Of a stretch of DNA of 64,000 nucleotides, positions 25,036-62,472 are shown piece by piece. The notes under the pieces were generated by a model. That model did no database searches. It saw only the letters and a program-made list of their open reading frames with translations, and was not told the DNA's origin. Both the position numbers and the translations under genes were made by a program. This DNA is from Actinomycetota bacterium (GTDB lineage: Bacteria > Actinomycetota > Actinomycetes > Mycobacteriales > JACQDL01): contig JACQDL010000023.1 in the NCBI GenBank assembly GCA_016201065.1, forward strand, positions 62,001 through 126,000, in the 5' to 3' direction. Every line of letters begins with the position of its first letter. The stretch's first letter is position 1.

Positions 25036-25335
25036 TCAGTACTTGAGAAGGTTGGCGTCGTCGACCGAGGCCGACCGGCGGGTCCGGAAGATCGACATGA
25101 TGATGGCCAGACCGACCACGACCTCGGCGGCGGCCACCACCATCACGAAGAAGGCCATCACCTGGCCGTCGTACGTGCCGTTGATCCGGCTGAAGGTCAC
25201 CAGCGTGAGGTTCACCGCATTGAGCATGAGCTCGATGCACATGAACACCACGATCGCGTTCCGCCGCACCAGCACGCCAACCGCGCCGATCGTGAACAGC
25301 ACGGCGGAGAGCACCAGATACCAGTCAGGACTCAT
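25036..25335 (-). CDS. nuoK: NADH-quinone oxidoreductase subunit K
   Basis: This 99-residue membrane subunit has three helices and is part of the E-channel proton pathway. The conserved [15 protein letters not shown] segment carries the membrane glutamate, and a second acidic position lies in [14 protein letters not shown] 25335 overlaps the end of nuoJ by 11 bases. Standard family length. Confidence 0.96.
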
Positions 25336-30474: not shown

Positions 30475-30476
30475 CG

Positions 30477-31763: not shown

Positions 31764-31767
31764 CGGC

Positions 31768-32454
31768 TCAGGCCTCCTTCCGCTCGGTGGTGGCGAGTGT
31801 GGCCTCCGGGTACTCCGGTGCGCGCTCGCCCCGCTCGACGGCCAGCCGGAGCCCGGCCAGCCCCGGTTCGGCGATGCTCACCGCGTCCCGTGCCTCCGGT
31901 CGCTCGTCGAGGAACCCGGCGAGCTGCCGGCTGATCTCCCGGAAGCCACACAGCGGAGCGCCCCGGGTCGGGCGCGGCGGTGTGCCGGCCCGCAGGTCGT
32001 CGACCAGCCGGACCGCGGACTCCTCCGACTGGTTGTCGAAGTACTCGTAGTTCACCGTGACCACCGGCGCGTGGTCGCAGGCGGCCAGGCACTCGGCGTG
32101 CTCCAAGGTGATCATGCCGTCGTCGGTCGTCTCGTTGTGTCCGACACCCAGGTACTCGCGCAGCGTCGCATAGATCTCGTCGCCGCCGAGCAGCCCGCAC
32201 AGCGTGTTGGTGCACACACTGACCAGGTACTCGCCGGTCGGGCCACGCTTGTACATGGTGTAGAAGGTGGCCACCGCGCCCACCTCGGCCCGGGTCAGAC
32301 CGAGCTCCTCGACGCACAGACCGATCCCGTCGGGGGTGATGTACCCCTCCTCGGCCTGCACCAGGTGCAGCATCGGCAGGAGCGCGGAGCGCGGCCTCGG
32401 GTAACGCGCGATGATCTCCCGCGCCTTCGTGCGGGTTTCCTCGGTCACTGGCAT
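31768..32454 (-). CDS. nuoE: NADH-quinone oxidoreductase subunit E
   Basis: NuoE is a thioredoxin-fold 2Fe-2S (N1a) subunit beside NuoF. The ligands are C81, C86, C122 and C126, with family-typical spacing. At 228 residues it has a C-terminal extension of about 60 residues beyond the E. coli protein, including CGFREISRQLAGFLDE. It immediately follows nuoD with no gap. Confidence 0.96.
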   Translation of the reverse strand: MPVTEETRTKAREIIARYPRPRSALLPMLHLVQAEEGYITPDGIGLCVEELGLTRAEVGAVATFYTMYKRGPTGEYLVSVCTNTLCGLLGGDEIYATLREYLGVGHNETTDDGMITLEHAECLAACDHAPVVTVNYEYFDNQSEESAVRLVDDLRAGTPPRPTRGAPLCGFREISRQLAGFLDERPEARDAVSIAEPGLAGLRLAVERGERAPEYPEATLATTERKEA

Positions 32455-33774
32455 CTACCTGTCCACCCCACCCATCACCGGGTCGATCGAGGCGACGGCG
32501 GCGATCAGGTCGGCGATCAGGCCGCCCTCGCACAGCACCGGCGCGCTTTGCAGGTTGATGAACGACGGCTCCCGCAGGTGGACCCGGAACGGCCGGGTGC
32601 CACCATCGCTGACCACGTGGCAGCCCAGCTCACCGCGGGGTGACTCCACCGCGGTGTAGACCTGCCCGACCGGCACCCGGAAGCCCTCGGTGACCAGCTT
32701 GAAGTGGTGGATCAGGGCCTCCATGGACTGGCCCATGATCTTTCTGACGTGCTCCAGCGAGTTACCCATCCCGTCGGAGCCGAGCGAGAGCTGGGCCGGC
32801 CAGCCGATCTTCGGGTCGTCCACCATCACCGGACCGGGCTCCAGCAGATCCAGGCACTGCCGGACGATGCGGACCGACTCCCGCATCTCGTCCAGCCGGA
32901 CCAGGTAGCGCGCCCACGAGTCGCAGTCCGGGTGTGTGACGACGTCGAAGTCGATCTCGTCGTAGACCCCGTACGGCTCGGTCTTGCGCAGGTCCCAGGG
33001 GAGCCCGGTGGCCCGCAGCAGCGGGCCGGTGACGCCGAGGGCGAGGCAGCCGGCGGTGTCGAGGTAGCCGACATCCTTCAGCCGCCGGATCCAGATCGGC
33101 TGCCCGGTGAGCAGCCTGTCCAGGCCGGCGACCTCCTTCTCCATCTCGTCGCACCAGGTCGCGATCGCGGCCGGCGCCTCCTCCGGCAGGTCCTGGGCCA
33201 GCCCGCCGGGGCGGACGAACGCGTGGTTCATCCGCAGCCCGGTGACCAGCTCCAGGACGTCCAGGCACCGCTCGCGGGCCCGGAAACCATTCGTCATGCC
33301 GGTCAGCGCACCCAGCTCCATGCCACCGGTGGCCAGCGCCACCCAGTGCGAGGAGACCCGGTTGACCTCCATCAGCATGGTGCGGATGACCTGGGCCCGG
33401 CGCGGTGCGGTGATGCCGAGCAGCTTCTCCACCCCCAGGCAGTAGGCGGTCTCGCTGAACAGCGGCGCGAGGTAGTCGGCCCGGGTGACGAAGGTGGTCC
33501 CCTGGGTCCAGTTGCGGAACTCGGCGTTCTTCTCGATCCCGGTGTGCAGGTAACCGATCACCAGCCGGGTGTTGGTGACCGTCTCACCCTCGATCTCCAC
33601 CACGAGCCGGAGCACGCCGTGCGTCGACGGGTGTTGCGGGCCGAGGTTGACGACCATCCGCTCCTCGCTGATCGGGTCGCTGGCGAGCAGGTCGTCCCAG
33701 TCCCCGCCGGTGACCGTGTACACCCGACCCTCCTGGGTGTCCCGGGACGCCGCGTACCCGTCGGCCGTGCTCAT
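32455..33774 (-). CDS. nuoD: NADH-quinone oxidoreductase subunit D
   Basis: NuoD is the 49-kDa-type subunit related to NiFe-hydrogenase large subunits and forms the quinone-reduction pocket. ATG 33774 gives 439 residues starting [16 protein letters not shown]; an upstream open frame is not NuoD-like. The conserved [19 protein letters not shown] (with the quinone-site histidine) and the C-terminal [15 protein letters not shown] are present. The hydrogenase nickel cysteines are absent, as expected. Confidence 0.97.
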
Positions 33775-33820
33775 CGTCCGGCTCCTTCCCGCTCGCCGCC
33801 GCCGGCGGCACACCGGCCGG

Positions 33821-34540
33821 TCACCGGTACGCCCGCCGCTCGTCGGGAGGTGGGATCGTCGCGCCCTTGAACTCCACCGGGATGCCGCCGAGCGGGTAGT
33901 CCTTGCGCTGCGGGAAGCCATCCCAGTCGTCGGGCATGAGGATCCGGGTCAGCCCCGGATGCCCGTCGTAGACGATCCCGAACATGTCGTAGGCCTCCCG
34001 CTCCTGCCAGTCGGCCGTCGGGTAGACCCCGGTGACGCTCGGCACGTGCGGGTCCCCGACCGGGACGGCGACCTCCAGCCGGATCCGCCGCCGGTAGGTC
34101 ATCGAGGTGAGGTGGTAGACGGAGTGCAGCCGCTCCGGCGTACCCAGGTAGTCCACCCCGGACACCGAGGAGCACAGCTCGAAGCGGAGCGCCGGGTCGT
34201 CGCGGAGCGTCGCGCACAGGCCGACCAGGTGCTCGCGGGCCAGGTGCAGGGTCAGCTCGCCGCGGTCCACCTCGACCTTGCGCACCGCCACCGCGAAGTC
34301 CGGGTATCCCTCGGCCAGCGCGTCGACCACCTCGTCGAAGTACCCACCGTAGGGGCGCTCCGCCGCCGGCACCGTCCAGGTGGGACGGACCAGGCCGCCG
34401 AACCCCGAGGTGTCCCCCGACCCGGAGACGCCGAACATGCCGTGCCGGACCGGGCCGGTGCCGGCGTCGTCAGGGCCGGGCAGGGCCGGGTCCGCGGGAC
34501 GCTGGTCGCCGCCGGCACCCGGCGGCGTGTGATCGGTCAC
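33821..34540 (-). CDS. nuoC: NADH-quinone oxidoreductase subunit C
   Basis: NuoC is the 30-kDa-type peripheral-arm subunit. The family signature is the segment [21 protein letters not shown], here near residues 180-200, followed by RKDYPLGG. The 239-residue protein has a 50-residue disordered Pro/Gly N-terminus typical of actinobacteria. GTG 34540 overlaps the nuoB stop. It is separate from nuoD, unlike the fused NuoCD of E. coli. Confidence 0.96.
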
Positions 34541-35076
34541 TTCGCATACCTCACCGAGGACGGCAGCAGCTCGACCTTCTGGCCGGCCAGCTGGGCGGCC
34601 CGCTTCGGTCCGAGCGGCTCATGCATGATCTTCTCGTGCAGCTTGAGGATCGCGTCGATGAGCATCTCGGGCCGCGGCGGGCAGCCGGGCAGGTACATGT
34701 CCACCGGCACGACGTGGTCGACGCCCTGCACGATGGCGTAGTTGTTGAACATCCCTCCGCTGGAGGCGCACACCCCCATGGCCAGGACCCACTTCGGGTT
34801 CGGCATCTGGTCGTAGATCTGCCGGAGCACCGGCGCCATCTTCTGGCTGACCCGACCGGCGACGATCATCAGATCCGCCTGCCGGGGGCTGGCCCGGAAG
34901 ACCTCCATGCCGAACCGGGCCGAGTCGTACCGTGGTGCCCCGAATGTCATCATCTCGATCGCGCAGCAGGCCAGCCCGAACGTCGCCGGCCACATCGAGG
35001 ACTTCCGGCTCCAGTTGACCAGCTTCTCCACACTGGTCAGCAGGAACCCGCTGGGCAGCTTCTCTTCCAGACCCAT
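34537..35076 (-). CDS. nuoB: NADH-quinone oxidoreductase subunit B (cluster N2)
   Basis: NuoB binds N2, the 4Fe-4S cluster that donates electrons to quinone. The four ligands are visible: adjacent C37-C38 (LACCAIE), C103 (MGVCASSGG) and C132 (PGCPPRPE). The 179-residue protein matches family length. It is 10 bases downstream of nuoA and overlaps nuoC. Confidence 0.97.
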
Positions 35077-44779: not shown

Positions 44780-44911
44780 ACCGCACGACGGATGGGATCC
44801 CGCGTCGAGGGGCACGACGATGGACAGGGAGGTCCACGCCTCCAGCCCGGGTTCGGCGCCGCGGCTCCCTGGGGCGCCGGCGGGCGGTCACGATGAGGGT
44901 TGAGTGCCCAG

Positions 44912-45880
44912 ATGACGCTGACTCGACGGATCGCCGCCGCCGCGGACCGCGCAACCACGCGCCTGGTGCGGCTGGAGATTCTGGTGCTGGCCCTCGGCAT
45001 CCCGCTCTTCGGTGCGTTCTACCTCGTCGACCAGCACGTCGACGCCGGGCCGTCGCTCGTCCAACGGCAGGTTCAGGCCGCCGAGCGGCGGGTACGCACG
45101 GCGCCGAACAGTATCCAGGCCCGACTGCAGCTGGCGCTGGCCTACCGGCAGGACAGCCGGCTTGACGACGCGTTGCGGCAGTACGACGAGATCCTGAGGG
45201 CGGAGGGAAGCCATCGGGCCGCCCTGCTCGGACGCGGCGGTGTCCTGATGGCCAAGGGCGACCTGGATTCCGCCGCGGCGGCGTTCCGGACGATCACCGG
45301 TGCGGCGTCGACCGGCGAGTTCGCCGGTGCGGACCCGCAGCTTGCCGAGGCGCACTACTTCCTCGGCTCCATCGCGTTGACGCAGGGGAAGGTCAAGGCC
45401 GCCCTCGCTGAGCTCCAGGCCGCACTCAAGATCGACCAGACGGATGCGGATGCGTGGTATCTGCTGGGCCTCGCGCGGCTGAAGGATGGTGCCGCCGAGC
45501 GCGCCGTTCCGGCGTTCCGGCGGGCCCTGCTCTTCGTGCCCACCGGGTGGTGCGAGCCCTACTCGCAACTTGCCGTGGCCTACTCGACCCTTCGCCAGGC
45601 GCCCCAGGCCGAGTACGCGGCCTCGATGGTCGATTTCTGCCAGAAGAGGCCGGCTGAGGCGAAGCGCCGGCTCCAGGCACTCGCGGCGGGACCGGTGGCG
45701 GTCGACGCGATGCTCGGGTTGGGGATGATCGCCGAGAGCAGCTCCGAACGCGCGGAGGCGGTCGGCTGGTACCGGAGGGTGCTCGCCGCCGATGCGGCCA
45801 ACATCGGGGCGAGGTCCGCACTGTCCAGGCTCGGTGTGCGGCCCACCCCGGCGGGTCCCGCCGCCGCAGGGACGGGATGA
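44912..45880 (+). CDS. Membrane-anchored TPR protein
   Basis: ATG 44912 (GAGGG at 44895-44899; an in-frame TTG at 44900 is less likely) gives 322 residues. A single N-terminal helix (EILVLALGIPLFGAFYLVDQ) anchors a periplasm-facing solenoid of about 6-7 TPR units, for example IQARLQLALAYRQDSRLDDA and DADAWYLLGLARLKDGAAERA. It opens the multiheme cytochrome gene run and ends one base before the NHL gene. TPR proteins such as CcmI/NrfG present apocytochromes to heme lyases in other bacteria; a similar role here is inference. Confidence 0.75.
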   Translation: MTLTRRIAAAADRATTRLVRLEILVLALGIPLFGAFYLVDQHVDAGPSLVQRQVQAAERRVRTAPNSIQARLQLALAYRQDSRLDDALRQYDEILRAEGSHRAALLGRGGVLMAKGDLDSAAAAFRTITGAASTGEFAGADPQLAEAHYFLGSIALTQGKVKAALAELQAALKIDQTDADAWYLLGLARLKDGAAERAVPAFRRALLFVPTGWCEPYSQLAVAYSTLRQAPQAEYAASMVDFCQKRPAEAKRRLQALAAGPVAVDAMLGLGMIAESSSERAEAVGWYRRVLAADAANIGARSALSRLGVRPTPAGPAAAGTG

Positions 45881-45881
45881 G

Positions 45882-46937
45882 ATGACCACGGTCGACAACC
45901 CCCCGCCCACCGCCGCCGACCCGGCGGCGCCGTTGCCGGCGCCGGGGCCTCACCGCACCAGCCGATGGCGCCGTTGGCGCCGCCCGGTGGTGGCGGCGCT
46001 CGCGCTGCTGATCGCGATCCTGGTCATGGTGGCCATCTGGTACCTGCGCAGCCGCAGGCCGCTCTCCGAACTCCCGGGCCTGGCCGAGGACAGGATGCCG
46101 CACTACGTGTTCAGCCTCTACGGCGCCACCCATCCGCTCGGGGTGGCGGTGCTCCCGTCCGGCGACCGGATCTACGTCACCGAGAGCGACGGTGACCGCG
46201 TGGTCCGGGTCTACAACCGGTCGGGGAAGGAGATCGGCACCCTCAGGCCACCGCCGTCGTCGACCGGCGCCGCCCACATCCCGGTCTACGTGGCCATCAA
46301 CCCGGCCACCGACGACATCTACGTCAGCGACCGCATGGCGGCCGCGGTCCACGTCTACGACGCGGCCGGCAGGTATCGGCGCACGTTCGCTCCCCGGGGT
46401 GATCTCGGTGCCGGTTGGGAGCCGCTGGGCCTGGCGTTCGACCGGGACGGGCGGCTCTACGCCACCGATGTCCGGGGCGGCACGCACCGGGTCCTCGTCT
46501 TCGGCGCCGACGGCACGCTGCAGCGGACACTTGGGCTACCGAACTCGTTGTCGTTCCCGAACGGGGTCGTCGTGGACGGGTCCGGCAACATCGAGGTCAG
46601 CGACAGCAACAACGGCCGGGTGGTGGTTTTCGATCCGGCCGGGAAGCTCCTCGCCGCGATCAACCGCGGGGTCGGCGATGGCGACCTCGGCCTGCCGCGT
46701 GGGGTGACGGTCGACGACAAGGGACGGCTCTACGTCGTGGACACGACCAACCACGCGGTTCGGGTGTACCGGGTGGGCGATGGCACCGATCCGCTCCCCG
46801 TGTATCTCGGCTCATTCGGGCAGGAAGGGCTGCTCGACGGACGGTTCGAGTACCCGAACGGGATCGCCACCGACACCCGGAGCCGCATCTACGTCACCGA
46901 CCGGGAGAACAACCGGGTTCAGGTGTGGAGCTACTGA
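45882..46937 (+). CDS. Membrane-anchored NHL-repeat beta-propeller protein
   Basis: The 351-residue protein starts at ATG 45882, one base after the TPR gene stop. After a Pro-rich cytoplasmic start it has one helix near residues 40-57 (VVAALALLIAILVMVAIWYL) and then five or six NHL blades; recognisable ones are HPLGVAVLPSGDRIYVTES, FPNGVVVDGSGNIEVSDS, PRGVTVDDKGRLYVVDT and YPNGIATDTRSRIYVTDREN. The propeller should be outside the membrane. NHL propellers are scaffolds for protein interaction; a place in a cytochrome complex is suggested only by the location. Confidence 0.8.
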   Translation: MTTVDNPPPTAADPAAPLPAPGPHRTSRWRRWRRPVVAALALLIAILVMVAIWYLRSRRPLSELPGLAEDRMPHYVFSLYGATHPLGVAVLPSGDRIYVTESDGDRVVRVYNRSGKEIGTLRPPPSSTGAAHIPVYVAINPATDDIYVSDRMAAAVHVYDAAGRYRRTFAPRGDLGAGWEPLGLAFDRDGRLYATDVRGGTHRVLVFGADGTLQRTLGLPNSLSFPNGVVVDGSGNIEVSDSNNGRVVVFDPAGKLLAAINRGVGDGDLGLPRGVTVDDKGRLYVVDTTNHAVRVYRVGDGTDPLPVYLGSFGQEGLLDGRFEYPNGIATDTRSRIYVTDRENNRVQVWSY

Positions 46938-47038: not shown

Positions 47039-48082
47039 ATGGGAACAGTGAGGAGGCTGGCCTTCCTCGCGGTCGGTAGCCTGGTCTGGCTGGGGCTCGC
47101 AGCCGTCCCCGCGTCAGCCGACAACGGGCCGCACTACCCGTCCGCGGGCAATACCGCCGTCGACCGGTGCGCCGGGTGTCACCGCGCACACACGGCACCA
47201 GCGCCGTACCTGCTGCGAGCGGCTCAGCCGGCGCTGTGCTACACGTGTCACGGCGCTGCCGCCGGCGGTGCGTCGACCGATGTCTACGACGGAGTCGGCT
47301 ACCCAGGTTATGAACGTGGCGGCACGGCAGCGGGCGGCCAGGCACTCCGCGGCGGTGGTTTCGGCTACGCCCTGATCGGGTCGGGGAGCGCGACCCGAAC
47401 CCCGCCAGGTGTGTCACCGGCGGTCAAGACCGTTCCGGTGCTGACCACGGGCGAGGCGACGACGTCGACGCACAGCGTCGACGGCTCGACCCTCACCGCG
47501 TGGGGTAACGGGGCGATCTCGTCCACCGTTTCGGCCGGCACCGCGATCGCGTTGCGGTGCGGCTCGTGCCACGACCCGCACGGCAACGGCAACTACCGAA
47601 TCCTGCGGGCCATCCCGACGGATTCCGGGGCGGCAACCGGGGTTGCGATACCCGACTCGGCGGCGAAGGTCTACACGACCGGCAACTACTGGGCCACCGA
47701 CGACCCCAACTCGCCCCCGGTCACCACCCCGATCACGGTGACGTCCAGCACCGGCGTGGTCACGACCTACACGCCATCGGTGTTCATCGCCAACATCTCG
47801 GCGTGGTGCACGACCTGCCACACCCGTTACCTCGCGCCGTCCGGTTCGTACGAGAACAGCTCCGGCGACGCGCTGTACACCTATCGGCACCGGTCGGATC
47901 AGAACTACCGGGAAGGCGGTGCGAACTGCATTACCTGCCACATCGCGCACGGTACGAACGCGGCGATGAGCGGGACCTACTCCGGCAAGGCCACCAACCC
48001 TGACGGATCGGGACCCGCCGGGAGCAGCAAGCTCCTCCGGGTCGACAACCGTGGTACCTGCAACATGTGTCACAGGGTCTGA
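47039..48082 (+). CDS. Secreted hexaheme cytochrome c
   Basis: The 347-residue protein has a signal peptide (residues 1-27, ending VPASA) and six CxxCH heme sites: CAGCH, CYTCH, CGSCH, CTTCH, CITCH and CNMCH. The first two form a doubled-CxxCH pair; the others are separated by long Ser/Thr/Gly-rich stretches. No CxxCK or other catalytic site is visible. ATG 47039 is preceded by GGAAGGAGG. It follows the NHL gene after 101 bases and precedes system II assembly genes. Best described as an electron-carrier of the cytochrome c3/c7-like group; no membrane anchor after processing. Confidence 0.85.
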   Translation: MGTVRRLAFLAVGSLVWLGLAAVPASADNGPHYPSAGNTAVDRCAGCHRAHTAPAPYLLRAAQPALCYTCHGAAAGGASTDVYDGVGYPGYERGGTAAGGQALRGGGFGYALIGSGSATRTPPGVSPAVKTVPVLTTGEATTSTHSVDGSTLTAWGNGAISSTVSAGTAIALRCGSCHDPHGNGNYRILRAIPTDSGAATGVAIPDSAAKVYTTGNYWATDDPNSPPVTTPITVTSSTGVVTTYTPSVFIANISAWCTTCHTRYLAPSGSYENSSGDALYTYRHRSDQNYREGGANCITCHIAHGTNAAMSGTYSGKATNPDGSGPAGSSKLLRVDNRGTCNMCHRV

Positions 48083-48128
48083 TGATGCTGCGGCCGGCCA
48101 CCAGATACAGGAGCCATGGGAGCCAGCG

Positions 48129-49034
48129 ATGGTCCACCGCCCGACCTCCGCCGCCAAGGACGCCACCGGGTTGACCAATGAGCTGCTCGGCCGGATGGGG
48201 CTGACCTCCGCCGCGAGCCAGGAGGACATCGAGAGCGCGCACGACAGGATCCTGGAGTTCCTCCAGCAGGCCCCGCGTGGGTTGCGGTCCTGGGCCGAGC
48301 GGGAGATCACCGCAGCGGACGAGGCGTTCGTCCTGCTGTCCGACCCGGCCGCCGACCTGCACGCGGCGGACCCGGACGCGGCGGACGCCGCCGGCCCAGC
48401 AGCCGAGCCGCCGTCCACTGCGACGCGTACCTCACGGCGGACCCACCCGGCGCGGACGGGGCTGGTGGGCGCTGTCATCGCCGCGGTGGTCCTCGGTGGC
48501 TACGCCATCGGGCGCGAACCGGGGGTGCCCGGCATCTCGGGCACACCGACCGACCAGTCCTCGACGGCGCCGCCCGCGACGCCGGTCGACCAGGCGAAGG
48601 TCGCCGCGCTGATGGCGAAGGTCAGCGCAAACCCGAAGGACGTCGACTCGCTCCGGACGCTCGGTGACACCTACTTCCAGGCCGCCGACTACGCCACAGC
48701 CAGCAGCTGGCAGCAGAAGATCCTCGCGCTCGACCCGAAGGACGCGACCGCGCACCTGGCGTTGGGGGCGGCGCAGTTCAACCTGGGCAACGCCGCCGAG
48801 GCGGAGCGCCACTGGCGGCAGGTCGTGGCGCTCAACCCTCGGCAGGCCGAGGCCCACTATGACCTCGGCTTCCTCTACCTGAGCCAGAGTCCACCCGATC
48901 TTGCCAAGGTTCGCGAGGAGTGGCGCACAGTCGTCGAGATCGACCCCGCGTCCGCGATCGCCAAGACGGTCGCGACCCACCTGGCGAGCCTGGATGGCGC
49001 CACTCCCAGCCCCTCGCCCACCGATGGTCACTGA
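48129..49034 (+). CDS. Second membrane-anchored TPR protein
   Basis: From ATG 48129 the product has 301 residues. The N-terminal third is a small helical region (LTNELLGRMGLTSAASQED, AEREITAADEAFVLL), then an Ala/Pro linker, one helix near residues 120-135 (GLVGAVIAAVVLGGYAIG), and about four TPR units (DVDSLRTLGDTYFQAADYATA to HYDLGFLYLSQS). It sits between the hexaheme cytochrome and resB. Its topology places the TPRs outside the membrane, suitable for handling apocytochrome c; this is inference from the position. Confidence 0.75.
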   Translation: MVHRPTSAAKDATGLTNELLGRMGLTSAASQEDIESAHDRILEFLQQAPRGLRSWAEREITAADEAFVLLSDPAADLHAADPDAADAAGPAAEPPSTATRTSRRTHPARTGLVGAVIAAVVLGGYAIGREPGVPGISGTPTDQSSTAPPATPVDQAKVAALMAKVSANPKDVDSLRTLGDTYFQAADYATASSWQQKILALDPKDATAHLALGAAQFNLGNAAEAERHWRQVVALNPRQAEAHYDLGFLYLSQSPPDLAKVREEWRTVVEIDPASAIAKTVATHLASLDGATPSPSPTDGH

Positions 49035-49046
49035 GCGAGGGGTGAC

Positions 49047-50546
49047 ATGAGCCAGATCCTCCGCACCCACTCCCCGGTCGAGCCCGACGCCGACGACGAC
49101 CCCGACAGCCTCGACAGCGGTATCGCCGTCTCGCCGTCGGACGTCGTCGACCGGCTGTGGCGCTTCTTCATCTCCAAGCGCGTCGGGCTGGTCCTGATCC
49201 TCGCCATGGGACTGCTGTCCCTGGTCGGCACGGTTCTGGCGCAGGCACCGGCGGGGATGCGCGACGATCCGCAGGCCTACCCGCAGTGGCTCGCCTTGCA
49301 GCGCGGGAAGTACGGCGGCTGGACCACGGTGCTGGACACGCTCGGCCTCTTCGCGGTCTTCTCCTCGATCTGGTTCAAGGCCGTCACCGTCCTGCTGACC
49401 ACCAGCATCCTCGCGTGCTCGATCAACCGGGCGCCGCGGCTGTGGCGGCAGGCGATCCACCCGCGCACCCGGATGGGTGATGCCTTCTTCTCGCACGCGG
49501 CGCTGCGCGCCCGGATCACGGTTCCGGTCGGAACGGACGGCGCCATCGCGGCGGCCCAGCGCGCGCTCCGGTCGCACCGCTTCCGGACGCTCGTCGACCC
49601 GGATGGCTCGCCCGGCGCGCTCTACGCCGACCGGCACCGGTTCGGCCCGTTCGGCACGGTCGTGGCGCACGTGAGCTTCGTCGGCATCCTCCTCGGTGCG
49701 GCCATCAGCGGGTCGGCCGGCTTCAAGGACACCCAGTTCGCCGTTCCGGTCGGCTCCCGGGTGGAGGTCGGCCACGGCACCGGGATCGCGGTCGAGGCGA
49801 GATCCTTCTCCGACTCCTACTACCCGGACGGCTCACCGAGGGACTACGCGAGTGAGCTGGTGCTCCACCAGAACGGCCATCCGGTCGCCACCAAGACGGT
49901 CCGGGTCAACCAGCCAATGCGGTGGGGCGGCCTCTCGCTCTACCAGTCGTTCTTCGGGGTTGCCGCCGCGATCCAGGTCGAGGATGGCGCCGGCAAGGTC
50001 GTCTTCGACTCCGGCGTACCACTGGCGTGGAGCTCGGACGACGGCACGCACAGCATCGGCCAGTTCGAGCTGCCGGCTCAACGCCTGAGGGTGTACGTCG
50101 TCGCGGCCGCCTCCGGCGAGGTCGACCCGAACATCCAGCCGGGGCAGATGCAGCTGGAGATCTATGCCGCCGGAGCGGACACGCCGATGACGACGACCGT
50201 CGTCTCGCAAGGCAAACCGACCGCGGCGGCCGGCCTGAGCTTCACCTTCGCCCGCGAACGCCAGTTCACCGGCCTGATCGTGGCGCACGACCCAGGAGCG
50301 ATCTTCGTCTGGGTCGGCTCCATCCTCATGGTCCTCGGCCTCTTCCTCGTCCTCTTCTTCCCGCACCGCCGGGTGTGGGTGAGCGCGCGCGAGACGACCG
50401 GCGGCAGCGAGATCCGGCTCGCGTCGGCCATGCGGCGCGACTCGGCGTTCGAAGCGCAGTTCCACCGGCTGGTCGGTGACATCCAGCGCTCCGGAACCCG
50501 CCCACCGGAACCGATCGACTCCTCAGCCGAAGGCAGGGCCGAGTGA
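49047..50546 (+). CDS. resB: Cytochrome c biogenesis protein ResB (Ccs1)
   Basis: ResB forms, with CcsA, the system II heme export and ligation complex for c-type cytochromes. The 499-residue protein has the family layout: helices near residues 45-65 (RVGLVLILAMGLLSLVGTVL) and 98-120, a third near 205, a large extracytoplasmic domain (about 225-420), and a final helix near 425-445 followed by a cytoplasmic tail. ATG 49047 is preceded by GAGGGG. It overlaps ccsA by 4 bases. Presence in this cluster suggests it is dedicated to the adjacent multiheme proteins. Confidence 0.92.
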   Translation: MSQILRTHSPVEPDADDDPDSLDSGIAVSPSDVVDRLWRFFISKRVGLVLILAMGLLSLVGTVLAQAPAGMRDDPQAYPQWLALQRGKYGGWTTVLDTLGLFAVFSSIWFKAVTVLLTTSILACSINRAPRLWRQAIHPRTRMGDAFFSHAALRARITVPVGTDGAIAAAQRALRSHRFRTLVDPDGSPGALYADRHRFGPFGTVVAHVSFVGILLGAAISGSAGFKDTQFAVPVGSRVEVGHGTGIAVEARSFSDSYYPDGSPRDYASELVLHQNGHPVATKTVRVNQPMRWGGLSLYQSFFGVAAAIQVEDGAGKVVFDSGVPLAWSSDDGTHSIGQFELPAQRLRVYVVAAASGEVDPNIQPGQMQLEIYAAGADTPMTTTVVSQGKPTAAAGLSFTFARERQFTGLIVAHDPGAIFVWVGSILMVLGLFLVLFFPHRRVWVSARETTGGSEIRLASAMRRDSAFEAQFHRLVGDIQRSGTRPPEPIDSSAEGRAE

Positions 50547-51433
50547 TGCTGACGCTGTCCCACTACAGCCTGGTCGCGGGAGTCGCGCTGATCGCGCTCG
50601 CGCTGGCCAGCTACATGCTGGTGTTGACGATCGGGCGGTCGGTGCACCGGCGGCCGGCGATGGCCCGGGTCGGCGGCGGCGCGGCGGCCGAGGTCGCCGC
50701 GTCCCGGCCGCGCGGCCTGGCCCAGTACGGCACGGCGTTCACCCAGCTCGCCCTGGCGTTCCTCACCGCGTCGCTGGTGTGCCGCGCGATCGCGACCGGG
50801 CACGGGCCGTTCGCCAACCAGTACGAGTTCGCGGTGGCCTTCGGCTGGGGCATGGTCGGCGCGTACGTCTACGTCGAGCGCCGCTACCACGTACGGACCC
50901 TCGCCCTGCTGATCCTGCCCATCGCGACCGCGCTGCTGCTGTACGCGATGACGGTCGGCGCGACCGCCACGCCGCTGGTGCCCGCGCTACAGAACAGCCT
51001 GCTGCTGACCGTGCACGTCGCGGTGGCGATCCTCGCCTACGGCGCCTTCTCGGTGGCCTGCGCGGCCGGCGCGCTCTACCTGATCCAGCCCGAGGGCGGT
51101 CGGCGCGGCATGCCCAAGCCGGCGCTGCTCGACGAGATCGCCTATCGCGCAGTGGTGATCGCCTTCCCGCTGATGACGATGACGATCATCCTGGGTGCGG
51201 TCTGGGCCGACATCGCCTGGGGTAGCTACTGGAGCTGGGACCCCAAGGAGACCGCGTCTCTGCTCACCTGGCTCATCTACGGCGGGTACCTGCACGCGCG
51301 GGTGGTTCGTGGCTGGCGGGGGCGTCGGGCTGCCTGGCTGCTGATGGCCGGCTTCGCCGCCGTGCTGTTCACCTTCTTCGGCAACCTCTTCTTCGGCGGC
51401 CTGCACAGCTACGCCGGCATCAGCCCCAGGTGA
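50543..51433 (+). CDS. ccsA: Cytochrome c biogenesis protein CcsA (ResC, heme-handling)
   Basis: CcsA exports and presents heme for attachment to CxxCH motifs. The 296-residue membrane protein has about eight helices and the tryptophan-rich WWD heme-handling motif at residues 221-244, including SYWSWDPKETASLLTW. The conserved flanking histidines H158 and H251 are present. Start is GTG 50543 or the next codon ATG 50546; the resB stop lies in between. Partner of ResB. Confidence 0.94.
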   Translation: MMLTLSHYSLVAGVALIALALASYMLVLTIGRSVHRRPAMARVGGGAAAEVAASRPRGLAQYGTAFTQLALAFLTASLVCRAIATGHGPFANQYEFAVAFGWGMVGAYVYVERRYHVRTLALLILPIATALLLYAMTVGATATPLVPALQNSLLLTVHVAVAILAYGAFSVACAAGALYLIQPEGGRRGMPKPALLDEIAYRAVVIAFPLMTMTIILGAVWADIAWGSYWSWDPKETASLLTWLIYGGYLHARVVRGWRGRRAAWLLMAGFAAVLFTFFGNLFFGGLHSYAGISPR

Positions 51434-51490
51434 CGCACGGCCAGGGCAACGGCAGGCGTGCCCGACCGGGATGAGGACGGAGGGTCTGCG

Positions 51491-52039
51491 ATGAGGTCGC
51501 TGGTGCTGGCTCTGGCCGCGACGACCGCCCTCGTGCTGGTTGCCGGCCACCTCACCGATCAGCACGCCGCCGGTGGGGCAAGCGCGGTCACGCTGTCCGG
51601 GCCGGTCACGGGTGCCGCACCGACGGTGGGCAAACCCGCGCCGGACTTCACGGCCACTGCCGTGGACGGCACGCCGGTCTCGTTGAGCTCGTTCCGGGGG
51701 CGAGCGGTCTGGCTGACGTTCGGTGCCAGCTGGTGCGCGGCGTGCCGGGCCGAGGCGCCGGACATCGAGGCCGCCTACCGGCGCACCCAGGCCGACGGTG
51801 TGGTGGTCCTCGCGGTGTCCATCTCCGAGAGCACTGCCGACGTCCGGGGCTTCGCCGATCGGGCCGGGCTCACCTTCCCTCAGGTGGCGGACCCGGACAC
51901 GCGGATCGCGTCGGCGTACCGGGTGGGCGGGATCCCGGCCCACTTCTTCATCGACCGGCACGGCGTCCTGCGGTCGATGCGGACCGGAAGCCTCAGCCCT
52001 GACGGGATGGACGGCGCCTTGGTGGAGATCAGCCGATGA
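51491..52039 (+). CDS. TlpA/ResA-like thioredoxin
   Basis: The 182-residue protein is an extracytoplasmic thioredoxin-fold oxidoreductase. An N-terminal hydrophobic segment (residues 3-19) is a signal anchor; the active site is WCAAC with C82 and C85. ResA-type proteins keep the CxxCH cysteines of apocytochrome c reduced before heme attachment. ATG 51491 is preceded by GGAGGG, and the stop overlaps the decaheme start (ATGA). No CcdA electron donor is in the window. Confidence 0.88.
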   Translation: MRSLVLALAATTALVLVAGHLTDQHAAGGASAVTLSGPVTGAAPTVGKPAPDFTATAVDGTPVSLSSFRGRAVWLTFGASWCAACRAEAPDIEAAYRRTQADGVVVLAVSISESTADVRGFADRAGLTFPQVADPDTRIASAYRVGGIPAHFFIDRHGVLRSMRTGSLSPDGMDGALVEISR

Positions 52040-53586
52040 CCACCCCACCGGTGCCCGACCCACCGGCGGCGGGCGCGGACGCCCGACCGACCCGCCGTTT
52101 CCGCCGCTTCCGCCGGGTGCCGCACCCGCCCTGGCGGAGCAGGCGCGGCATCCTGCTGCTGTTCCTGCTTGCCGCCGGATTCGGGTCGATCGTCACGGTG
52201 AGCGGGGCGATGGCCGTGCACTACTCGGAGACCACCAGCTTCTGCGGCCGGTGCCACACCATGGACGCGGAGCTGAAGGCGCACCAGATGTCGGCGCACC
52301 GTGAGCTCAGCTGCGCGGAATGTCATGTGCAGCCGGGCGTCGCCGGCTGGGTCAGGGCGAAGGCGACGGGTACCAAGCAGCTCATCCAGATCATGACGGG
52401 CTCCTACCCGCGGCCCATCCCACCGCCCGACCACGCGCGGCTGCCGTCGATCAAGGACACCTGCCTGCGCTGCCACTCGGTGGAACGCATCACCCGCAAC
52501 GGCGGTCCGCTCAAGCTGGTGCTGAGACCCACCTACCAGCCGGACGAGAAGAACACCCGGGAACTCGTCGCCGTCGTGCTCCGCCCATCTGGGCTGGGCA
52601 GCGGCGACGGTGTCCTCGGCGTGCACTGGCATGTCCAGCAGCAGGTGACCTACAGCACCACCGACCGGGCCTCGAAGAAGATCGATCTCGTTGAGATCAC
52701 CCGACCCGGCGGGCATGTCGAGCAGTACATCGCCGCGGCGGCGGTTGGCGTGTCCAACGACGTCCGGCCGGACATCGAGCGCCTGCGCAGTACCGAGTCG
52801 TCCCGGGTCATGGATTGCCTCGACTGCCACAACCGGGTCGGGCACGGCGTCCCGAGCACCGACCAGGCGCTGGACGAGTCGATGTCAGCGGGCCGGATCA
52901 GCGCGTCCCTGCCCTTCATCAAACGGGACGGGGTCGCCCTGCTGAACGCCAGCTACCCGTCCGTGGCGGCCGCCGACAGCGCCATCGAGGGACTTCGGGC
53001 GACCTACCAGGAGCGCTATCCGCTCGTCCTGAGGCGCAGCAGCACGCAGGTGACCGGGGCGATCGACGAGCTGAAACGGGTGTACCGGCTGCTGGCGACC
53101 CCGGAGATGAAAGTTCAGGCACGAACCTACCCGGACAACCTGGGGCACCGGAGCGCACCGGGCTGCTTCCGGTGTCACGACGGCACCCACTACCAGGTGG
53201 TCGGCGGCACGGTGACGAGCAAGAAGATCCCGTCAGCCTGCGCGACCTGCCACATCTTCCCCCAGATCGGCGGACGCATCTCCGGCCTGCTGATCGGTGG
53301 TGAGCCGGCCGACCACGCCAGCCCGCGCTACGTGTTCACCCACAAGATCGGTATTTCCGGTACCAATCCGGCCGGGACGGCCTGTGCGAGGTGCCACGAC
53401 CGCACCTACTGCGAGAACTGCCACAACACTGGTGCGGTGACGGTGCAGCACGACCAGATGCTCTACAACCACCCCGCGTCGATCCGGAGGTCCGGTGGGC
53501 AGGCATGTGGGTACTGCCACCAGGAGGTCTACTGTGCCGGCTGCCACAACGACCCGGTGCTGCTCACGCCGGCGTCCCCAGGGTGA
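52036..53586 (+). CDS. Membrane-anchored decaheme cytochrome c (NapC/NirT-like)
   Basis: The 516-residue protein has one N-terminal helix (about 38-60) and ten CxxCH sites: CGRCH (70-74), CAECH (93-97), CLRCH, CLDCH, CFRCH, CATCH, CARCH, CENCH, CGYCH and CAGCH. The first part (helix, SFCGRCH with the histidine-methionine neighbourhood, LSCAECH) resembles the NapC/NirT quinol-oxidising tetraheme family. The remainder is a six-heme or more extension with no known catalytic motif. It probably takes electrons from menaquinol and passes them outward. The ATG overlaps the thioredoxin stop. Confidence 0.85.
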   Translation: MTTPPVPDPPAAGADARPTRRFRRFRRVPHPPWRSRRGILLLFLLAAGFGSIVTVSGAMAVHYSETTSFCGRCHTMDAELKAHQMSAHRELSCAECHVQPGVAGWVRAKATGTKQLIQIMTGSYPRPIPPPDHARLPSIKDTCLRCHSVERITRNGGPLKLVLRPTYQPDEKNTRELVAVVLRPSGLGSGDGVLGVHWHVQQQVTYSTTDRASKKIDLVEITRPGGHVEQYIAAAAVGVSNDVRPDIERLRSTESSRVMDCLDCHNRVGHGVPSTDQALDESMSAGRISASLPFIKRDGVALLNASYPSVAAADSAIEGLRATYQERYPLVLRRSSTQVTGAIDELKRVYRLLATPEMKVQARTYPDNLGHRSAPGCFRCHDGTHYQVVGGTVTSKKIPSACATCHIFPQIGGRISGLLIGGEPADHASPRYVFTHKIGISGTNPAGTACARCHDRTYCENCHNTGAVTVQHDQMLYNHPASIRRSGGQACGYCHQEVYCAGCHNDPVLLTPASPG

Positions 53587-53699
53587 CCATCGTCCCATCT
53601 CCAGCCAAGATCGTCGTCGTAGACTGTACCCGTCCAGAAGGGCCGCCACTGGTCGGCCGAAGGACCAAGGGGGCGGGATTCCGTGTCCGGAGCGAGACG

Positions 53700-55130
53700 G
53701 TGCCACTGTCGATATTTTCCGGATTAGCTCGTCGCGGCGTGCGTGGTCTGGCTGGCGACGGGCCGCAGGCGCTTGGCCGGCTCCGGGTGTTGGGCATCCT
53801 GGTCCCGGTCGCCTTCGTCATCGTTGTGGAGTTCCTCCGGGTCGTGGCCGTCGGGCGGGACCGGCTCGCGATCACCGGCCATGTCGCCTTCGCTGCGGTG
53901 ATGACGCTGTCGATCGTGGCGTTCACGCTGGCGATGTTCGCCGTCATCGACCGTGCGCAGTTGCTCCTGGAACGGCACAACCGCGAGCTGGCGGTGACGA
54001 ACGCCGTGGCCACCGCCGTCCCGGGAGAGCAGGCTGTCGAGCTGGTCGCCGATCTCCAGCGCCGCAGGCGCGAAGGGCACGCCGGCTACGACGTGCTCCT
54101 CCAGATCTCGAGCCAGCGGCCGCTCCAGGACGTCCTCGGTGCTGTCGTCCGCGCCGCCTGCGACCTGCTGGCTTGCGACGAGGCGAGCCTGTGCCTCGAC
54201 CAGGTGGCGTCCCCGTTCATCCAGCTCGACGAGGCACTGACCAGGGCAGTCGGGGTCGGGGCGAGCCTGACGGTGCCGATCCACGGCTCCGCGGGATCGC
54301 TCGGCGACCTGCGGGTCGGCCGGCAGCGGGACGTTCCGTTCACCGAACGGGACCGGACCTTCCTGATGACCCTCGCCAAGCTTGTTGCGATCACCATCAC
54401 GAACGCCGAGCTCCGCGAGAACGACCGCCAGCGCGCCATCCTGTCCGAACGCGAGCGGATCGCCCGCGAGCTGCACGACAACCTCGCCCAGGTGCTCGGG
54501 GCGACCCACGTCCGGCTACGCGCGCTGGGTTCGCGGCTGGCTGTCCGTGGCAAGGGCGGGAGCGGTCCCGAGCCGACCGCGCTGGCGGAGCTCACCGAGC
54601 TGGCCGACCTGTGCCAGGAGTCCTACGGCGACGTGCGGGAGGCGATCCTGGGGTTGCACGAGTCAAGCCGCGCCGACCGCGGGTTGCTGGACAGCCTGAG
54701 CGCCTATCTCGACAGGTACAGCCGGCTGTGCGGGATCGAGACCTCGCTGGAGTGCACGCTCGATCACGAGCTGGCCCTCTCCCCCAGCTGCGAGGTGCAG
54801 CTGATCCGCGTCATCCAGGAGGCCCTGACCAACGTCCGGAAGCATTCGGACGCCAGGTCGGCGGTGGTCCGGATCACTGAGGCGCGCTCGGCGATCACCT
54901 TCCTCGTCGAGGACGACGGCCACGGCTTCGAGCTGGATCACCTGGCGGCGCGGCGGGACGGCTTCGGCCTGCACTCCATGCGCGAGCGGATGACGCTGCT
55001 CAGCGGCGATCTTGTCGTCGACTCCGCTCCGGGACGTGGCACGCGGGTCGTTGCCAGCGTCCCCCTTCCCCGCCGCCCCACCCACGCTCCCGCAGGGATC
55101 ACCGACATCGCCGAGGCGGTCCGGACATGA
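53700..55130 (+). CDS. Sensor histidine kinase with GAF domain (NarX/NreB type)
   Basis: The 476-residue protein (GTG 53700, GGAG seven bases upstream; a GTG at 53583 overlapping the decaheme stop would add 39 residues) has two membrane helices (LGILVPVAFVIVVEFLRVV and HVAFAAVMTLSIVAFTLAMF), a GAF domain around residues 115-235, a HisKA_3 domain with phospho-acceptor H259 in ARELHDNLAQ, and a GHKL ATPase (NVRKH, DDGHGF, GLHSMRER). It is coupled to the response regulator by ATGA overlap. Likely controls the preceding cytochrome genes; signal unknown. Confidence 0.88.
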   Translation: MPLSIFSGLARRGVRGLAGDGPQALGRLRVLGILVPVAFVIVVEFLRVVAVGRDRLAITGHVAFAAVMTLSIVAFTLAMFAVIDRAQLLLERHNRELAVTNAVATAVPGEQAVELVADLQRRRREGHAGYDVLLQISSQRPLQDVLGAVVRAACDLLACDEASLCLDQVASPFIQLDEALTRAVGVGASLTVPIHGSAGSLGDLRVGRQRDVPFTERDRTFLMTLAKLVAITITNAELRENDRQRAILSERERIARELHDNLAQVLGATHVRLRALGSRLAVRGKGGSGPEPTALAELTELADLCQESYGDVREAILGLHESSRADRGLLDSLSAYLDRYSRLCGIETSLECTLDHELALSPSCEVQLIRVIQEALTNVRKHSDARSAVVRITEARSAITFLVEDDGHGFELDHLAARRDGFGLHSMRERMTLLSGDLVVDSAPGRGTRVVASVPLPRRPTHAPAGITDIAEAVRT

Positions 55131-55831
55131 GGCAACGCGCGAACGCAGGGCGGCCGACCGAGCCCACCCGGATCCTGCTGGTCGACGACCAGCCGCTCTT
55201 CCGGCGGGCCATCGCGACGCTGATCAACGAGCAGTACGACCTGACCGTGGTCGGCGAGGCGACGAACGGTCTGGATGCGGTGGAGCAGGCACACTCGCTG
55301 ACCCCCGACCTGGTGATCATGGACATCGAGATGCCGGTGATGGACGGGGTCGAGGCGGCCCGTCTCCTCCACGAGCAGCTACCTGCCGTGAAGGTCCTCA
55401 TCCTCACCGTCTCGGAGTCCGACGATCGCCTCTTCGACGCCATCCGCTTCGGCGTTCACGGCTACCTGCTGAAGGACCTGCGACCGGAACAGCTCTACGA
55501 CATGATCCGGTCGGCCATGCGCGACGAGACGCCGGTCTCGCCGGTGGTGGCCGGGCGGCTGCTGGAGGAGATCCGGAACGCCGGGGCGACCCGCCAGTCG
55601 ACCGCGACGCCGGCCGAGAAACCGGTCGTTACCCGCCGTGAGCTGGAGATCCTGCGCCTCGTCGCGGACGGCATGAGCAACAAGGAGATCGGCCGGAAGT
55701 TGTCGATCACCGAGGGTACGGTCAAGAACCACGTCCACAACGCCCTGGAGAAGCTGCACCTGGACAACCGCATCCAGGCGGCGACGTACGTGGTGCGGCA
55801 GGGACTCGGGCACCCGCCCACCAGGACCTGA
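55127..55831 (+). CDS. LuxR/NarL-family response regulator
   Basis: The 234-residue protein has a receiver domain with acidic pocket D20-D21, phospho-acceptor D66 in VIMDIEMP, conserved threonine in LILTVSES and lysine in YLLKD, then a LuxR-type helix-turn-helix (VTRRELEILRLVADGMSNKE, IGRKLSITEGTVKNHVHN). It is the partner of the preceding kinase. No target site could be picked; it probably acts at promoters in this cluster. Confidence 0.93.
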   Translation: MRQRANAGRPTEPTRILLVDDQPLFRRAIATLINEQYDLTVVGEATNGLDAVEQAHSLTPDLVIMDIEMPVMDGVEAARLLHEQLPAVKVLILTVSESDDRLFDAIRFGVHGYLLKDLRPEQLYDMIRSAMRDETPVSPVVAGRLLEEIRNAGATRQSTATPAEKPVVTRRELEILRLVADGMSNKEIGRKLSITEGTVKNHVHNALEKLHLDNRIQAATYVVRQGLGHPPTRT

Positions 55832-60072: not shown

Positions 60073-62472
60073 GTGACCAACTCGTCGAAGGACCCATCGG
60101 GCGGCGGGCCGGACGGCGCCGCGACTCCCATTGCGACCGGGAGTCGTTCGGGACGCCGTCCGCTCCAGATCGGGAAGGGTTGGGTGCAGGCCGCCGGGTT
60201 GGTGTTCCTCACGGGTTTCTTCGTCGTCGTGCTGATGGGCTACCTGACCTACCAGTCCAGCCCGCCGATCCCGCAGCGCGTGGTCTCCACCTCCGGCCAG
60301 CCCGTCTTCACCGGGCAGGACGTCCGCGCCGGGCAGGACGTCTTCCTCCGCAACGGCCTCATGGAGTACGGCTCGATCTTCGGTCACGGCGCCTACCTCG
60401 GGCCGGACTTCACCGCCGACTACCTGCACCGTTCGGCGGACCTGGTGAGGGCCGGCTACGGCGCCGCCGGATCGGACACCGCGGCGCAGCGGACCCGCAC
60501 CGACTTCAAGACCAACCGCTACGACCCGACCACCGGTGTCCTGACGTTCTCCGACGCGCAGACCGCGGCGTTTGCCACGCTGACCGCCCACTACGCGGAG
60601 TTCTTCGCCTCCCCGGCGGGGAAGACCGGCTTGCGGCCCGCGGCAATCACCGACCCGACCCAGATCCGGCAGCTGACCAGCTACTTCGCGTGGAGCGCCT
60701 GGGCCTCGGCAGCGGACCGGCCGGGCAGCGACTACAGCTACACCAACAACTGGCCGTCGGAGCCCCTGGTCGGCAACGCGCCGTCCGCCCACGTCGTGCT
60801 GTGGAGCGTGCTGAGCCTGATCGCGCTGCTCGGCGGGACCGGTGCGCTGTTCGCGGCCTTCGGGCGGTGGGACTGGCTCGGCTGGCACGGTCGGGACCAG
60901 CACGAGTTGCGTTTCCGCGAGCCGCAGCGGGTGCGACTGACCGCCAGCCAACGCGCCACGGCCTGGTTCTTCCTGACCATGACCGTACTGTTCCTCATCC
61001 AGACCCTGGTCGGGGCGGCCAGCGAGCACTACCGTGCCGACCTGGGCAGCTTCTTCGGCCTCCCGCTGGATCACTGGCTGCCCTACAACCTGGTGCGGAC
61101 CTGGCACGTCCAGCTGTCGCTGTTCTGGGTGTCCACCAGCTTCCTCGCTGCCGGGGTCTTCCTGGTGCCGATGATCACCGGACGGCGGGACGTGAAGGGG
61201 CAGCACCTGCTGACCTACACGCTGCTCGGCGCCTTGGCCCTCGTCGTGGTCGGGTCGCTGCTGGGTGAGCTGGCCGGCATGCGCGGCGCGTTCGGCCGGG
61301 CGTGGAGCTGGCTGGGCATGCAGGGTTTCGAGTACCTCGACCTCGGCAAGCTGTGGCAGCTCCTGCTCACCGTTGGGATGATCTTCTGGGTCGTGATCCT
61401 CTGGCGCGGGCTGCGCAAGCGCCTGCGCGCCGAGAGCCGCGCGAACCTGCCATGGCTGTTCTTCTTCGCCGCGCTCGCGCTGCCGGTGGTCTACGCCACC
61501 GGCCTGCTGGCCCGGCACGACTCCGGCTACACCGTCACCGACTTCTGGCGGTTCATGGTCGTCCACCTGTGGGTGGAGGACTTCCTCGAACTGTTCACCA
61601 CCGTGATGGTGGCCTACATCTTCGTCCTGCTCGGCGTCGTCCGGGAAAAGGTCGCACTGCGGGTGATCTTCCTCGACATCGTCCTCTACAGCGCTGGTGG
61701 CGTGATCGGCACTGCGCACCACTGGTACTTCAACGGCGAGCCGGCGGCGGTGCTCGGTCTTGGTGCGTTCTTCTCGGCGTTCGAGGTCATCCCGCTGACG
61801 TTCCTCACCGTGGAGGCGTGGAGCTTCATCCGCCTCGGCGCCCGGCAGGAGGCGCGCAGTGCCAGCGACTTCCCGCATCGGTGGGCGGTGATGTTCCTGG
61901 TCGCCGTCGGCTTCTGGAACTTCGTGGGCGCCGGCATCTTCGGCTTCCTCATCAACCTGCCCATCGTCTCCTACTACGAGATCGGCACGGCGCTCACGGC
62001 CAACCATGCGCACGCCGCGATGATGGGTGTCTACGGCATGCTCGCGGTCGGCTTCGCCGTTTTCGCGCTGCGCTATCTCGTGCCGAAGGACAGTTGGTCG
62101 GACCGGTTGGCGTCGATCAGCTTCTGGTCCCTCAACGTCGGGTTGGCGTGGATGGTGTTCGTCACCCTGCTGCCGCTGGGCATCCTGCAGCTCTACCACG
62201 CCGTCGACGTCGGCTACTACGACGCCCGCACCCTCGCCTACGTCGGGAACCGGACCAACACGCTGCTCGAATGGCTGCGGCTGCCTGGCGATGTCCTCTT
62301 CATTGTCGGTGGGGTCGGGCCGCTGCTGTGGCTGGCGGTGCGGGGCGCGCTGCACCGGGGACGGCACCACGATCTTCCCGACCAGGATGATCAGCACCTG
62401 TTCACCGAGGTCCAGCACCTGGAGCCGGCCGAGGCGAGTGCCGCCGGGAGCATCACCGGAGCCGCCACGTGA
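60073..62472 (+). CDS. norZ: Quinol-dependent nitric oxide reductase (qNOR)
   Basis: This 799-residue membrane enzyme reduces NO to N2O using quinol. It has a long N-terminal extracytoplasmic region fused to a 12-helix NorB-type core, the hallmark of qNOR. Visible active-site residues: low-spin heme ligand candidate H345, non-heme iron ligands H498 with E502 (HLWVED), H549-H550 (TAHHWYF), and the heme b3 region H645/H647 (NHAHAAMM). GTG 60073 has GGAGG nine bases upstream. The preceding 295 bases hold no recognised operator. It allows menaquinol from complex I to remove NO, as detoxification or respiration. Confidence 0.93.
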   Translation: MTNSSKDPSGGGPDGAATPIATGSRSGRRPLQIGKGWVQAAGLVFLTGFFVVVLMGYLTYQSSPPIPQRVVSTSGQPVFTGQDVRAGQDVFLRNGLMEYGSIFGHGAYLGPDFTADYLHRSADLVRAGYGAAGSDTAAQRTRTDFKTNRYDPTTGVLTFSDAQTAAFATLTAHYAEFFASPAGKTGLRPAAITDPTQIRQLTSYFAWSAWASAADRPGSDYSYTNNWPSEPLVGNAPSAHVVLWSVLSLIALLGGTGALFAAFGRWDWLGWHGRDQHELRFREPQRVRLTASQRATAWFFLTMTVLFLIQTLVGAASEHYRADLGSFFGLPLDHWLPYNLVRTWHVQLSLFWVSTSFLAAGVFLVPMITGRRDVKGQHLLTYTLLGALALVVVGSLLGELAGMRGAFGRAWSWLGMQGFEYLDLGKLWQLLLTVGMIFWVVILWRGLRKRLRAESRANLPWLFFFAALALPVVYATGLLARHDSGYTVTDFWRFMVVHLWVEDFLELFTTVMVAYIFVLLGVVREKVALRVIFLDIVLYSAGGVIGTAHHWYFNGEPAAVLGLGAFFSAFEVIPLTFLTVEAWSFIRLGARQEARSASDFPHRWAVMFLVAVGFWNFVGAGIFGFLINLPIVSYYEIGTALTANHAHAAMMGVYGMLAVGFAVFALRYLVPKDSWSDRLASISFWSLNVGLAWMVFVTLLPLGILQLYHAVDVGYYDARTLAYVGNRTNTLLEWLRLPGDVLFIVGGVGPLLWLAVRGALHRGRHHDLPDQDDQHLFTEVQHLEPAEASAAGSITGAAT

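Follow-up and report, generated by a model that had tools for sequence, protein, structure and literature searches.

An ImcH-like decaheme cytochrome encoded in one gene cluster with a probable OmcS-like hexaheme cytochrome in an actinobacterium

A membrane cytochrome with ten heme-binding motifs, encoded at 52036 to 53586 on the plus strand of a 64,000-nucleotide stretch of actinobacterial DNA (here called the window), is best read, with a probability of roughly 0.6, as an ImcH-like menaquinol oxidase which, together with an OmcS-like hexaheme cytochrome of the same gene cluster, would make up a minimal chain of two cytochromes that delivers electrons of menaquinol to an acceptor outside the cell; the route and this acceptor are predicted from sequences and models. 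The host, an actinobacterium, may respire onto something external. Architecture, family, gene cluster and co-occurrence were observed in sequences and models, and the direction of electron flow is part of the proposal. None of the parts is of a new kind, and what is unusual is where they occur; the decaheme protein is a variant set apart by one helix and ten hemes, its gene cluster is informative, and these surroundings weigh more than the fusion of a quinol dehydrogenase head to further hemes itself.

RESULTS

Architecture of the decaheme protein

The reading frame encodes 516 amino acids with exactly ten CxxCH motifs (starting at residues 70, 93, 143, 261, 377, 402, 450, 459, 491 and 500), which contain all 20 cysteines; no CxxCK motif is present, and each of 10,000 shuffles of the protein contained two CxxCH motifs at most. 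The AF2 model, made with 77 aligned sequences (mean pLDDT, 77.6; pTM, 0.74), is good for approximately residues 35 to 410 and of low confidence in the tail, and has one hydrophobic N-terminal helix (residues 36 to 64) ahead of heme 1. A decaheme protein with a single helix and paired motifs had been proposed in an earlier sequence-only reading of this DNA, and this description was borne out; the pairs CARCH-CENCH and CGYCH-CAGCH occupy residues 450 to 463 and 491 to 504, respectively. From the N terminus onward, and all on the plus strand, the gene encodes an NrfH-like head with hemes 1 to 3 (52243 to 52476; residues 70 to 147), an inserted beta domain (52477 to 52809; residues 148 to 258, with predicted strands at 160 to 233), heme 4 with the motif CLDCH, the fourth NrfH-type heme (52816 to 52830; residues 261 to 265), a cytochrome c7-like part with hemes 5 and 6, CFRCH and CATCH (53164 to 53253; residues 377 to 406; Pfam Cytochrome_C7 at 365 to 406, E = 6.1e-9), and a tail with hemes 7 to 10 in two CxxCH-x4-CxxCH pairs (53383 to 53547; residues 450 to 504). 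This division into head, c7-like part and four-heme tail is well supported by sequence and model.

A NapC/NirT-type head had been placed in the first 150 or so residues, which was right as to type and wrong as to extent, since only three of the four hemes lie there. Pfam Cytochrom_NNT matched residues 37 to 124 (E = 1.9e-10) and NCBIfam NrfH matched residues 43 to 148 (E = 1.1e-16), with scores under the curated NCBIfam cut-offs for NrfH and NapC. In profile searches against the PDB, NrfH, the menaquinol dehydrogenase of Desulfovibrio (2j7a and 2vr0), was the only convincing relative of the head, and heme 4 was matched by CLDCHNRVGH to CTDCHRNVQH of NrfH, a match that is weak when taken alone. 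Foldseek with the decaheme model returned three NrfH chains on top (E of about 0.006 to 0.01), and VIA-align 2 aligned 143 of the 145 NrfH residues with model residues 41 to 357 at a Z of 7.9, a value which, being under 8, is not decisive according to the note of the tool and with which the sequence profiles agree; no other fold reached a Z of 5 or above (second row, 4.1). Because the alignment runs from 41 to 357, the NrfH-type fold takes in heme 4, which is displaced to residue 261, so that the four hemes do not lie in about 150 to 200 contiguous residues. As judged from sequence and model, the head is of the NapC/NirT type, closest to NrfH and split by the beta domain of approximately 110 residues (about 148 to 258). 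Among the 77 aligned proteins, M76 was conserved in 99%, H88 and K109 in 100%, and H197 and H199, both in the beta domain, in 77 of 77. The NrfH residues that match M76 and K109 have roles in the quinol site, and fold and quinol-site residues of the head both fit the NapC/NirT/NrfH type. NrfH resembles the head in its helix, four hemes and the M and K residues; unlike the decaheme protein, it has neither the inserted domain nor the extra six hemes, and its partner NrfA was not found in this genome.

The claim that such a head is joined to further hemes was borne out, with four hemes in the head and six beyond it, and neither the profile searches nor the motifs, all of which are CxxCH, pointed to a catalytic family. 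In the 10-member clade described below, 11 histidines outside the motifs are fully conserved together with M76, enough for ten sixth ligands when counted in total over the ten hemes rather than paired heme by heme; nothing in this ligand set therefore indicates a five-coordinate site open for catalysis. HAO-like proteins gave no Pfam or NCBIfam family match and appeared only as a weak PDB profile match (E = 0.008); among the DmsE and MtrA models, none matched at a threshold of E = 0.1. A described family does account for most of the length, namely ImcH and not the HAO or DmsE/MtrA types, and leaves the four-heme tail as a clade-specific part.

Relation to ImcH

By sequence comparison, residues about 34 to 460 are homologous to ImcH, the inner-membrane quinol oxidase of Geobacter, and have ImcH-type counterparts in Geobacter, Acidobacteriota, Chloroflexota and others. 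The decaheme protein shares with ImcH and its homologs (PMC6295460) the NapC-like head, an inserted domain with HWH, and the motifs MDCxDCHNR and GCFRCHDG, at 30 to 37% identity over these residues; unlike ImcH, it has one helix instead of three, CxxCH instead of CX3CH at heme 1, ten hemes instead of seven, and the four-heme tail. In the available part of PMC6295460, 71 ImcH homologs with 6 to 10 hemes are reported from 12 phyla. Since residues about 34 to 460 align with ImcH-type proteins and such homologs are in print, the fusion is of a known kind, and the novelty once claimed for it falls away. By homology, including the NapC-like head, and by a heme number within the range given in that part of the paper, the protein is an ImcH in the broad sense; the marks of the Geobacter type, three N-terminal helices and a CX3CH heme 1, are absent from it (one helix, CGRCH). 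The same part of the paper mentions one-helix homologs, among them Anaerolinea thermophila, from a phylum of the decaheme clade, and Intrasporangium calvum, from the phylum of the present host and the one actinobacterial homolog reported there, which resemble the decaheme protein in this respect as far as their description goes.

When genomes were scanned with an alignment of six proteins, at least 597 candidate stretches matched, at least 562 of which encode relatives; the best 80 were kept. Most of these 80 were ImcH-type proteins, from Geobacter, Acidobacteriota and others, usually with three helices (one or two were missed by the hydropathy count in some Acidobacteriota rows) and with CX3CH plus five or six CxxCH. 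The alignment of 77 comprised the window protein and 76 of the best 80 loci, four short or cut loci being left out, and had 30 invariant columns, which include hemes 1 to 6 and HxH. In a tree of these relatives, the decaheme protein fell in a clade of 10 rows (SH-aLRT, 100), 3 from actinomycetes and 7 from Chloroflexota metagenome-assembled genomes; each of the other nine members has one helix and ten CxxCH and lacks CX3CH, as the window protein does, whereas Geobacter relatives have three helices by the same hydropathy test. The window protein and two others of its class (L002 and L039) formed a joint group (support, 98) nested in the Chloroflexota rows and may have been acquired from Chloroflexota, the taxon labels being those of the submitters and the root a midpoint. 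What is new is the clade variant, with one helix and not three, CxxCH and not CX3CH at heme 1, and a two-pair tail, which is specific to this clade and a few neighbouring clades; the proximal histidines of hemes 7 to 10 are kept in 10 of 10 clade members. Decaheme proteins of three further loci (L041, L042 and L050) differ from the window protein, which has CxxCH at both sites, in having CX3CH at heme 1 and an apparent CX4CH at heme 8.

With query P0001 at E = 1e-10, matches were found in 1 of 41 order-level genomes (the query itself) and in 3 of 394 genomes of the class, itself included. In the phylum, 36 of 396 genomes matched, and only three matches besides the window (L004 to L006) extended well beyond the head. 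A plasmid search with the decaheme protein gave one NapC/NirT match only, to the head.

The gene cluster

Upstream of the decaheme gene and on the same strand lie, in this order, genes for a TPR protein (44900 to 45880; Pfam TPR), an NHL beta-propeller protein with an N-terminal helix (45792 to 46937; Pfam NHL, E = 5.4e-35), a secreted hexaheme cytochrome (47039 to 48082), a second TPR protein, J_TPR (48051 to 49034; Pfam TPR; true start probably inside the open reading frame), ResB (49047 to 50546; Pfam ResB, E = 3.3e-72) and CcsB, or ResC (50543 to 51433; NCBIfam TIGR03144, above cut-off), both of cytochrome c maturation system II, and a ResA/TlpA-like thiol-disulfide oxidoreductase (51458 to 52039; Pfam and NCBIfam), which overlaps the decaheme gene by the 4 bases ATGA. 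Directly downstream, also on the plus strand, are a NarX/NarQ-like sensor histidine kinase with a GAF domain (53391 to 55130; true start probably after 53586), whose matches are under the family cut-offs, and a NarL-like response regulator (55127 to 55831; NCBIfam NarL, 192.8 bits, cut-off 250). A NorB-type nitric oxide reductase of the quinol type, with a COX1 fold and a cytochrome-c-like domain, is encoded 6.5 kb downstream (60073 to 62472). The minus strand of the window carries complex I (nuo) genes at 25036 to 35076, of which five subunits were checked.

In clade loci, a J_TPR-type protein adjoins the decaheme gene or its ResB-CcsB-ResA block; this block lies directly upstream of the decaheme gene in 7 of 7 loci (L033 to L038 and L040), and TPR-NHL-hexaheme genes lie downstream in 3 of 3 loci with decahemes of a neighbouring clade (L041, L042 and L050). 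The window locus combines both arrangements. Each of the Chloroflexota loci L041 (9864 to 13504) and L050 (10274 to 13424) carries three tandem hexaheme-family copies, the third truncated where the locus stops, and a sensor histidine kinase with two CxxCH, perhaps a heme-based redox sensor, is encoded upstream of the decaheme gene in L041 (1164 to 2630). A misbinned contig was considered and rejected: RpoB on the same 64 kb scored 2100 bits against 5tw1, a mycobacterial structure, whereas the highest-scoring entry below the top 14 reached about 1500, and this result places the locus on an actinobacterial chromosome.

The hexaheme cytochrome

The hexaheme protein begins with a hydrophobic signal and contains six CxxCH motifs and exactly 12 histidines. 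OmcS, the filament-forming cytochrome (6ef8 and 6nef), likewise has six hemes and alternating CxxCHxxH, and uses 12 histidines as ligands, one of which is supplied by the next subunit according to the available part of PMC6584659; the hexaheme protein, which is only a putative filament former, is shorter than OmcS and shares only about 26 to 27% identity with OmcS homologs. In a MAFFT alignment with three Geomonas OmcS homologs, the six motifs were in register, those of hemes 5 and 6 in this alignment only. Among its histidines, H32, H181 and H304 recurred in all of 9 rows compared and H51 in 8 of them, and H145 and H284 shared only the same inter-motif interval. Comparison by hhalign with the three homologs jointly gave a score of 149 (E = 1.2e-20 for one comparison) over hemes 1 to 4 at most, and with the homologs singly 112 to 135; an ImcH scored 30 and 13 further multihemes 48 to 82, specificity being judged on these 14 controls from outside OmcS and the family. 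A hexaheme family profile searched against the PDB ranked OmcS (6ef8) second (E = 3.9e-5), narrowly behind an octaheme nitrite reductase; phmmer with the single hexaheme sequence found nothing in the PDB at E = 0.01, and the AF2 monomer model had a pLDDT of 33. Plain HMM bits were discarded as unspecific evidence, a 26-heme protein scoring 93 bits, above every OmcS homolog, among 238 multiheme open reading frames, and so was the CxxCHxxH alternation, which also occurs in L004 (2216 to 3094). On the sequence comparisons, the hexaheme protein is OmcS-like and probably a homolog of OmcS.

The Geomonas OmcS homologs, like the hexaheme gene, adjoin NHL genes, the second of which was called NHL-like from its sequence only; the window NHL protein matched a Geomonas NHL weakly by tblastn (27%, E = 2e-7). 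The available part of PMC7399161 offers an actinobacterial precedent, an OmcS homolog of Coriobacteriales with six CxxCH and 28% identity, which belongs to another class of Actinobacteria and for which no ImcH link is described in that part. A 631-aa version of the hexaheme protein, in which a large insertion rich in Thr and Ser separates hemes 3 and 4, is encoded in L113 (2930 to 4825) and L039 (8291 to 10186).

Co-occurrence and genome inventory

Of the 12 genomes whose decahemes are of the window type or the L041 type, 11 contained the hexaheme family (E ≤ 1e-20), compared with 1 of 11 other ImcH genomes (Fisher P = 1.1e-4, indicative only, since the genomes are related, the 11 comparison genomes were hand-picked and 3 of the 12 decaheme genomes supplied sequences of the query alignment).

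The host genome (3.65 Mb; completeness, 97.8%) contains one NapC/NirT-type gene, and NrfA (PF02335) was absent from the genome search, which removes nitrite ammonification with NrfA from the candidates. Paired_CXXCH matches were confined to the decaheme and hexaheme genes, as were all hits of a scan for CxxCH pairs, 2 at spacings of 9 to 39 bases (equal to the 2 of a reversed control pattern) and 3 at 40 to 70 bases (control, 0); these scans cover close pairs at 9 to 70 bases, not widely spaced motifs. PF14522 returned nothing from the genome, although it matches the decaheme protein, and this miss, with the completeness of 97.8%, makes genome-level absences less than airtight. Apparently, the genome encodes no other multiheme cytochrome, and the suggestion that a separate shuttle is not needed fits the genome, in which the scans revealed close CxxCH pairs in these two genes only and a separate multiheme shuttle is not evident.

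DISCUSSION

In the proposed chain, the decaheme protein would be anchored in the cytoplasmic membrane by its one helix and would oxidise menaquinol near heme 1, at M76 and K109. Electrons would pass outward through the ten hemes and from the tail to the OmcS-like hexaheme protein, which would take them across the cell wall or farther; candidates for the external acceptor are oxides of iron or manganese, humics, electrodes and other cells. Heme attachment would fall to ResB, CcsB and ResA, and help in export or assembly may come from the NHL and TPR proteins. With the quinol-oxidising head and a long carrier joined in a single polypeptide, no separate multiheme shuttle would be needed. More tentatively, and in our view doubtfully, the single cluster could be a complete two-cytochrome chain, in which an OmcS-like filament receives its electrons straight from the decaheme protein, a periplasmic shuttle and an outer-membrane conduit are both dispensed with, and the genome apparently encodes no other multiheme cytochrome.

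The NarX/NarL-like pair and the quinol-type NO reductase nearby point to nitrogen oxides and count against an external acceptor. Because of this pair, directly downstream, and the NorB-type protein, the main rival is that the decaheme protein is a quinol oxidase for nitrogen-oxide respiration, the regulators sensing nitrate or nitrite and the decaheme feeding a nitrogen-oxide reductase; the closeness of the head to NrfH fits as well. We consider this unlikely: NrfA was not found, the regulators scored under their family cut-offs, and the Chloroflexota decahemes are linked to hexaheme, NHL and TPR genes, not to a reductase. Moreover, NarL-type pairs accompany many systems, and a quinol-dependent NorB draws its electrons from quinol itself.

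Less likely again is reverse flow, in which electrons from Fe(II), a partner cell or a cathode would enter through the hexaheme protein and the decaheme would reduce the quinone pool. NapC/NirT-type proteins can run both ways, and the complex I encoded in the same window could use reverse flow; against this, the locus contains no Fe(II)-oxidation marker, and according to the available part of PMC6295460 the bacteria with ImcH homologs were all Fe(III) reducers, and these proteins are proposed to act as oxidases only. It is very improbable that the decaheme protein is a multiheme reductase in its own right, with catalysis at a five-coordinate heme as in HAO or octaheme reductases. The weak profile matches to HAO-like and other multihemes (E = 0.008 and 8e-7) are outweighed by the absence of CxxCK, the conserved ligand set, which is large enough for a sixth ligand at every heme, and the lack of a convincing structural match besides NrfH.

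A full-text literature search, which covers few subscription journals, found no report for Actinobacteria or Chloroflexota in which a decaheme of the ImcH type is joined with a hexaheme resembling OmcS. With the dozens of multiheme cytochromes that Geobacter employs, it is difficult to say which of them are the least required for wiring the quinone pool to the exterior; a genome with apparently only two multihemes beside their maturation genes would make this question testable. The range of OmcS-like cytochromes would extend beyond the one actinobacterial case found in the available part of the literature, and the co-inheritance with Chloroflexota would provide a clear family to name and follow.
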